From positions 1 through 64,000 of the forward strand of contig JACQZU010000028.1 of assembly GCA_016213735.1 (NCBI GenBank): DNA of 64,000 nucleotides, written 5' to 3'. This DNA comes from Acidobacteriota bacterium (GTDB lineage Bacteria; Acidobacteriota; Holophagae; Holophagales; Holophagaceae). Numbering within the stretch: position 1 is the stretch's first letter; the number at the start of each line of letters is the position of its first letter. The notes under the pieces are model-generated. The model saw only the letters and a list, made by a program, of their open reading frames with translations. It had not been told where the DNA came from and made no database searches. The translations under genes were made by a program, and so were the position numbers. Of this stretch, positions 33,565 through 34,245 are shown one piece after another.

Positions 33565-34162
33565 GGTTTCGAGTCCCTTCGCCGGTTCCTGGGCCCCTGG
33601 CGGGCCACCCATGGCTGCCGGCTGCGCTCCCGCACGCTGGCTGCGCACGGCCCTTCGCCTCCGGCGAACCGGCTCGGACGCGGTGCGTCCTTCGCCTGGC
33701 CCACCATTCGCCAGGATTGGCGAATAGGACCGGCGCTGGAAGCGACGGCCCGAAGGGCGAGGGCCCAGGACGGGTCCGAGTCAGCCTGCGCGCCATCGTG
33801 ATTTCGAGTCCCTTCGCCGGAACCTGGGCCCCTGGCGGGCCACCCATGGCTGCCGGCTCCGCTCCCGCACGCTGGCTGCGCACGGGCCTTCGCCTCCGGC
33901 GAATCGGCTCGGACGCGGTGCGTCCTTCGCCTGGCCCTATCTGCGCGCCATCGTGATTTCGAGTCCCTTCGCCGGAACCTGGGCCCCTGGCGGGGCCACC
34001 CATTGCTGCCGGCTCCGCTCCCGCACGCTGGCTGCGCACGGGCCTTCGCCTCCGGCGAACCGGCTCGGACGCGGCGCGTCCTTCGCCTGGCCCTATCTGC
34101 GCGCCATCGTGATTTCGAGTCCCTTCGCCGGAACCTGGGCCCCTGGCGGGGCCACCCATTGC
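33565..34162 (-). repeat. tRNA-anchored tandem repeats downstream of tRNA-Leu(CAA)
   Basis: About four copies occur on the tRNA strand; the shared GATTTCGAGTCCC landmark on the plus strand lies at 34111, 33955 and 33800, and as GGTTTCGAGTCCC at 33565. The spacings are 156, 155 and 235 bases; the last unit carries about 80 extra bases. Read on the minus strand, each unit begins with GCCGGCAGCA, the last seven bases of the tRNA acceptor strand plus the following bases. It then contains a GGCCCC/GGGGCC hairpin and CCGGCGAAGGGACTCGAA, an exact 18-base reverse complement of the tRNA T-loop through acceptor. Open frames run through the array, but the period is not a consistent multiple of three and I reject them as genes. 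The 33401-33564 stretch before the array holds no gene I can support. Confidence 0.85.
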
Positions 34163-34245
34163 TGCCGGCGAAGGGACTCGAACCCCCACTACGTTGCCGT
34201 AAGCAGATTTTGAGTCTGCCGCGTCTGCCATTTCGCCACGCCGGC
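34163..34245 (-). tRNA. tRNA-Leu (anticodon CAA)
   Basis: This is an 83-base class II tRNA on the minus strand. The acceptor stem is GCCGGCG/CGCCGGC with discriminator A. The anticodon stem-loop is GCAGA-CTCAAAA-TCTGC with anticodon CAA. A long variable arm (TACG-GCAA-CGTA) fits tRNA-Leu, and the T arm has GGTTCGAGTCC. The CCA end is not encoded (GCA follows). It reads UUG codons. It is directly followed on the same strand by the tRNA-derived repeat array. Confidence 0.95.

Follow-up and report, generated by a model that had tools for sequence, protein, structure and literature searches.

Behind the gene for tRNA-Leu(CAA) in a genome of the family Holophagaceae, from an organism related to Geothrix, lies a tandem array whose units carry copies of the 3′ end of that same tRNA in both orientations. 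The array was found in a window of 64,000 nucleotides (positions 1 to 64,000 of contig JACQZU010000028.1, assembly GCA_016213735.1; positions below are window coordinates unless a locus or another contig is named). Such a layout recalls the rtT repeats of E. coli, which have been known for decades; to our knowledge, there is no clear answer as to their origin and function. The question raised by this locus is whether the repeats serve the tRNA, give rise to an RNA of their own, or are small pieces of DNA that settle behind tRNA genes.

The array behind tRNA-Leu(CAA)

The resident gene, tRNA-Leu(CAA), whose 3′ end supplies the arms of the repeats, occupies 34163..34245 on the minus strand (ARAGORN; Rfam tRNA, 55.8 bits). 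Its T-stem contains two G-T pairs, and it lacks an encoded CCA (AGCA, 34160-34166), unlike most tRNAs of the Holophagaceae genomes examined. A GGCCCC/GGGGCC hairpin (t; 34138..34153, repeat analysis and fold) follows the tRNA as a terminator-like stem, at this locus without a T-run. Downstream on the same strand are three complete units and a partial fourth, with three cores. Read along the tRNA strand, each unit opens with an antisense arm (A′) and continues with a folded core, a segment that repeats the tRNA 3′ end in sense orientation (A″), and another copy of t. A′ is CCGGCGAAGGGACTCGAA, the exact 18-nt reverse complement of the tRNA from T-loop to acceptor, and occurs four times on the tRNA strand (inverted repeats I2-I5). 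Its antisense score of 18.0 was reached by 0 of 2000 dinucleotide shuffles of the first unit, the shuffle maximum being 13.0. Each repeat, and A″ as the sense copy of the tRNA end, begins with GCCGGCAGC.

All features of the array are on the minus strand. Unit 1 consists of A′ (34114..34131, I5), a three-way-junction core in its short form (34020..34115; covariance model R1, 101.5 bits), A″ with the sequence GCCGGCAGCA (34004..34013) and a copy of t (33982..33997, repeat family D3). Unit 2 has A′ at 33958..33975 (I4) and a short-form core at 33864..33959, which at 103.1 bits (R1) is the top match of the whole family; A″ and a copy of t (33826..33857, D3) separate it from unit 3. In the latter, A′ (33803..33820, I3) is followed by a long form of the core (33629..33802; R1 57.8 bits over 33629-33718) with an insert of ~79 nt at the GGTA internal loop (about 33700-33783). 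Another A″ and t copy (33591..33622, D3) leads to a terminal A′ without a core (33565..33585, I2), the truncated end of the array. Start-to-start spacings are 156, 155 and 235 nt along the tRNA strand, the repeats being exact; the 235-nt unit owes its extra length to the insert, i.e., it is a 156-nt unit plus ~79 nt within the core. A 54-nt block is present in four copies. The spacings, the common start, the GGCCCC/GGGGCC hairpin, the antisense copies and the derivation from the tRNA's own 3′ end had all been proposed in a preliminary description, and each was recovered here. The same ~79-nt insert was detected at two other places in this genome (locus L004, copy 3, ~1863-1945; L006, copy 2, ~366-455); it appears as an extra domain with several hairpins, so the long form is present at three tRNA/tmRNA loci of one genome. 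An Rfam scan of the array returned the tRNA and two spurious microRNA-type matches, and nothing else.

A structured core behind tRNA genes of the Holophagaceae

The array is one locus of a Holophagaceae-wide family and not a single-locus curiosity. A covariance model of the core, built from 16 copies, detected it in 33 of 61 Holophagaceae genomes, with about 120 copies in total; such copy numbers are minimum values, as contigs often terminate within arrays. The model identified no core in other families in a 347-genome sample of the phylum, and a pattern scan of named genomes matched Geothrix species and Holophagaceae MAGs. Assembly breaks inside arrays are frequent (G000:C3:1-400, C7:1-500 and many MAG contig ends), and draft genomes may miss array-adjacent tRNAs where assemblies break. 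The source genome (G000; 3.59 Mb in 28 contigs, with 41 tRNA matches) contains 14 core copies, located behind tRNA-Leu, tRNA-Asn, tRNA-Gln, tRNA-Gly and tmRNA, and also at contig ends with tRNA-Ser-like arms. The preliminary description had called for a search of relatives at the same tRNA-Leu(CAA), and repeats were indeed present there at four loci (L013, L136, L146, L147). Among the phages, plasmids and viral contigs searched, none carried the element. A 20-mer matched one Chloroflexi MAG (L086) and one Bacillota MAG (L091), and a 16-mer matched 80 viral contigs; these matches were dismissed as chance because the covariance model matched 0 of the 82 loci searched.

Position relative to the tRNA is strict. 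Of the 124 copies examined, 92 had a tRNA or tmRNA gene within 700 nt, and all 92 were downstream of it on the same strand; the remaining copies had no detectable gene of this kind within that reach. The first unit typically begins about 45-70 nt behind the tRNA. Host genes include 13 isotypes (Leu, Asn, Pro, Gln, Ser, Glu, SeC, Gly, Asp, Cys, Val, Met and Arg) and tmRNA. Eight copies without an intact gene were inspected: five followed a tRNA 3′ half that starts around the anticodon loop, two were cut by Ns or a contig end with the tRNA tail still visible, and one (L105) had no tRNA. Halves of this type were seen just upstream of the core at L054, L073, L119, L131 and L149, as would be expected had islands entered at the anticodon loop and pushed the 3′ half away along with the array.

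In the core consensus, a stem with a bulged A leads through a GGTA/G internal loop to an inner stem, beyond which a junction carries two hairpins; RNAalifold produced the same structure unprompted. Under this structure, 93.2% of cells were paired, double-change cells numbered 77 compared with 22.7 in shuffles, and the covariation score was 0.419 (0.114 in shuffled and 0.029-0.076 in slid versions). GGTA, the junction G and the bulged A are conserved although unpaired, and GGTAG at the foot of the inner stem is 87-99% conserved. The core is a new structured family and is well supported as such. Our literature searches on tRNA-adjacent repeats, REP with T-arm, attC with tRNA, and Geothrix repeats yielded no description of it; a short palindrome reported behind tRNAs in Methanopyrus is unrelated (PMC5217627). 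In the tRNA-Glu unit of one genome (L080, G055), the ATGGC/GCCA step of the outer stem, otherwise invariant, is swapped for a CCAGC/GCTGG pairing, a large compensatory change.

The arms differ from the core in that they fit the local tRNA. Antisense scores of A′ averaged 16.0 to its own tRNA vs 7.4 to other tRNAs, and in 67 of 70 cases the score to its own tRNA equalled or exceeded the 95th percentile reached with other tRNAs. A comparison with tRNAs lacking arrays is less clean, since element loci fetched a second time account for almost all high scorers in that set. A′ ended at T54 in 41 of 70 copies and 7 nt further upstream in 17; the start of A″ was position 57 in 37 of 58 copies, and another 8 began at -4 relative to T54. 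An origin of the 3-nt offset in the invariant TTC/GAA is possible, in which case A′ and A″ could share one boundary. A″ reached CCA in 52 of the 56 copies in which it was detected. At the Geothrix tRNA-Cys locus of G054, a T-loop change is matched in the tRNA, A′ and A″. A strict tRNA mimic with an intact acceptor stem was rejected, as the acceptor end of A′ is decayed in the tRNA-Cys set.

Across genomes, the Geothrix tRNA-Cys locus carries a full unit, A′ and the left arm only, or nothing after the terminator, and its orthologous cores are 92% identical with compensatory changes. The closest relative of a core was at the same tRNA in another genome in 33 of 91 cases, at a different tRNA of the same genome in 16, and at neither in 42. 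That the nearest core is often at the same tRNA elsewhere suggests that much of the inheritance is vertical; taken together with the full, half and empty sites, these counts point to vertical inheritance with decay and occasional movement between tRNAs, gain and movement being read from the comparison of loci and not from direct observation of a new insertion. Arrays grow and shrink as direct repeats. Their right ends break at varied places with no one fixed base, and a fixed attachment base at that end was rejected on these grounds.

Additional features bear on whether the folded form is DNA or RNA. G-U pairs made up 2.2% of pairs in the core (116 distinct copies) vs 7.3% in the tRNAs of the same loci, with a p-value that is indicative only because the copies are related and the alignment is fitted to the model. 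Hairpin 2 of the core has a GNA triloop in 72 copies (GAA in 33, GCA in 25, GGA in 11 and GTA in 3), whereas GNRA tetraloops are the preferred loops in the terminators of these loci. GNA loops are known to form extraordinarily stable DNA mini-hairpins (PMC4686876). The low G-U content and the DNA-type triloops hint that it is the DNA strand that folds. A DNA-only interpretation is softened by nine orthologous tRNA-Cys units, in which G-U pairs are present in the inner hairpin and in A′.

Comparison with rtT and other tRNA-associated DNA

The preliminary description had likened the array to the E. coli tyrT operon, and the likeness proved stronger than it had claimed. In E. coli K-12, three units stand behind tRNA-Tyr (annotated tyrV, rttR). 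They contain GGGGAAGGATGAGAAGCTTCGA, which is antisense to the T-arm (score 14.5; 0 of 2000 shuffles), followed by the hairpins CGTTGCC-GCA-GGCAACG and CCC-GAA-GGG and then by a sense copy, AATCCTTCCCCCACCACCA, that starts in the T-loop. When folded with DNA parameters, the unit forms an A′/A″ stem topped by a branched core that includes both GNA loops. Thus, rtT (Rfam RF00391, tyrT/tyrTV operon) has the same layout as the Holophagaceae repeats. In both, tandem units immediately follow a tRNA and repeat its 3′ end; a unit holds an antisense T-arm segment, then a core with GNA triloops (GCA and GAA in rtT), and finally a sense copy from the T-loop to CCA. The antisense segment, which had been regarded as an addition to the rtT layout, is therefore not one, because rtT itself contains it.

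Several differences were also evident. Core sequences and covariance models do not cross-match; the RtT model (RF00391) found no match in the window or in the whole source genome, whereas it matched E. coli. The K-12 units are behind tRNA-Tyr, while those of Holophagaceae are behind the 13 isotypes and tmRNA, and a GC-rich terminator-like hairpin between tRNA-Tyr and the first unit is not obvious. RtT is a documented RNA, whereas the Holophagaceae repeats are known here from DNA alone. The RtT core occurred at 1-10 places per E. coli genome (median 3), and 18 places were on plasmids. E. coli RtT is described as an RNA that is set free from the transcripts of tRNA operons, and a role in amino-acid limitation has been proposed for it (PMC4986893); some BIME-like elements have been reported to resemble RtT (PMC2965389).

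REP/GTAG palindromes, which are associated with RAYT transposases (PMC3733652), share with the new family a short intergenic hairpin DNA, GTAG at the stem foot, occurrence in clusters and a location downstream of genes. However, the Holophagaceae repeats are strictly linked to tRNA/tmRNA in one orientation and are not dispersed among kinds of intergenic region, their arms copy the local tRNA, their core is a three-way junction, and the source genome and several others rich in them lack Y1/RAYT. Y1 transposase (PF01797) is absent from G000, G004, G009, G012 and G037, all of which are element-rich. A REP/RAYT identity was rejected, since the GTAG tag is present yet the transposase is missing from the source genome and other rich genomes.

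Integrative elements that target tRNAs offer another parallel, in that the insert lies between direct repeats of the tRNA 3′ end, the tRNA is restored and boundaries are in the T-loop. Here, the insert is only about 100-190 nt, an extra inverted copy of the tRNA end is present, and the arms match many tRNAs. Units of about 155-235 nt are too short to encode an integrase, and the insert contains no integrase gene.

Mobile DNA, RNA or by-product

The reading that we favour, and to which we give about an even chance, is that these are rtT-type tRNA-tail repeats spreading as small hairpin DNA, with arms rewritten from the resident tRNA. The core would spread as a small non-coding element acting as folded single-stranded DNA and would insert at tRNA 3′ ends. 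The arms would not travel with the core but would be copied afresh from whichever tRNA is resident at the new site, perhaps by template switching or by conversion across the palindromes. Because the tRNA stays intact and a terminator is re-created after each unit, insertion is harmless to the tRNA. A role as RNA, e.g., in the form of an RtT-like hairpin RNA released when transcription reads through the tRNA, would be secondary to this. Against this reading count the mobilising genes and carriers sought and not found (Y1 transposases and reverse transcriptases in the source genome and several element-rich genomes; phages and plasmids), the varied right ends, the G-U pairs of the tRNA-Cys units, the conserved cores with compensatory changes at that locus, and the large share of vertical inheritance.

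A broader and clearly more tentative proposal is that rtT and the Holophagaceae repeats both belong to a class of tRNA-tropic mobile hairpin DNA that is widespread but has gone unrecognised, and that may insert at a fixed T-loop or T-stem boundary, rebuild the tail and terminator, and re-template both arms for each host tRNA. If this were true, RtT 'sRNAs' would be element transcripts and not dedicated regulators. The occurrence of the rtT layout in a distant phylum, with arms that follow the local tRNA, offers a new view of rtT, and the Holophagaceae arrays make it possible to ask how the arms of an element get rewritten for a new host gene. With about 120 copies and empty, half and full orthologous sites, the family also provides comparative power for distinguishing regulators from tRNA-tropic selfish DNA. 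The covariation model also allows annotators to mask or name this new family.

The main rival, which we consider somewhat improbable, is a structured non-coding RNA: units would be transcribed behind the tRNA, folded and freed as hairpin RNAs of the RtT kind, their base formed by an NCCA-ended acceptor/T-stem minihelix, and these would act in trans or titrate tRNA-processing enzymes. The strong covariation persists at one vertical locus, that of tRNA-Cys, whose closely similar orthologous cores with compensatory changes fit selection on RNA; the A′/A″ duplex resembles an acceptor/T-stem, with A″ mostly extending to CCA, and E. coli RtT sets the precedent of a released RNA linked to amino-acid limitation. 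However, at 68 of 70 loci the tRNA is separated from the unit by a terminator-like hairpin, with a T-run of at least 3 after it in 44 of the 70. The acceptor end of the A′/A″ duplex is mismatched or decayed in many copies, as in the tRNA-Cys set, while the core is kept. The element is missing or truncated in many close relatives, and its loops and G-U content are DNA-like.

A lower probability is assigned to a neutral origin, in which the arrays arose by tRNA-end duplication and template switching at palindromes, leaving the core as a passive relic. Variable right ends, common half-units and relics, and near-identical tandem copies are in line with it, and inverted plus direct copies of one segment are typical of replication slippage. 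What argues against such an origin is that one covarying core with conserved unpaired bases is present behind 13 isotypes and tmRNA, which excludes independent origins.

Self-regulation of the tRNA, which the preliminary description had suggested together with a processing role, is less probable still. In this model, A′ would pair with the tRNA 3′ half in a read-through precursor and block the cloverleaf. The fold that it requires is indeed predicted at equilibrium: when RNA parameters are used, the alternative hairpin is favoured for the tRNA plus the first A′ (-75.2 kcal/mol, z = -5.55), the cloverleaf T-stem has a probability of 0 in this fold, which presupposes transcription past t, and A′ does fit its resident tRNA. 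The role itself is not borne out. Terminators usually stand before A′, the A′ of later units can pair with A″ instead of the tRNA, and the element is dispensable, being gained, halved and lost at orthologous loci. Moreover, the family is dispersed behind very different tRNAs and tmRNA, which have no common regulatory need.

Systems that might mobilise the repeats were also sought among the genomes. Reverse transcriptase (PF00078) is absent from the source genome and from several element-rich genomes, and it showed no association with the element (p = 0.78). Two candidates were rejected for this reason, namely a product of a retro-element, group II intron or retron, and self-primed reverse transcription from the terminator hairpin, which would make A′. 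The integron integrase IntI was weakly associated with the element, scoring above its curated cut-off in 27 of 33 element-bearing vs 13 of 28 element-free genomes (Fisher p = 0.006, kinship ignored) and, within the largest genus, in 15 of 16 vs 8 of 15 (p = 0.015, kinship ignored). Y1 transposases showed a similar association (p = 0.03, kinship ignored). Element-bearing G004, G006, G010, G035, G042 and G059 had IntI below the cut-off, and G004, G010 and G042 of these are element-rich.

Like attC, the units form imperfect single-strand hairpins with extrahelical bases and variable terminal structure, and are arranged in tandem arrays. They differ from attC in lacking R boxes, cassettes and ORFs, and in having no match to attC of the same family of organisms: RYYYAAC/GTTRRRY boxes are absent from the core consensus, and the core model left the true attC arrays of L201 (G003:C1:576500-587500) unmatched (best 15.7 bits, E = 0.24). 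An identity as integron attC was thus rejected, even though the integrase is common in the family, and the related idea that the integrase acts on the repeats as folded attC-like single strands is the least plausible of all, since the hairpin form, the conserved unpaired bases, the variable tip and the IntI association in its favour are set against the missing boxes, the unmatched attC arrays, the element-rich genomes without IntI above the cut-off and the similar association of Y1 transposases. Over the 61 family genomes, IntI exceeded the curated cut-off in 40, and the source genome encodes an integron integrase at C3:31205-32146, near locus L200. Chromosomal integrons with canonical attC arrays (GCCTAAC...GTTAGGC) were detected in Holophagaceae/Geothrix at L200, at L201 (733-4143) and at L203 (1090-4096).
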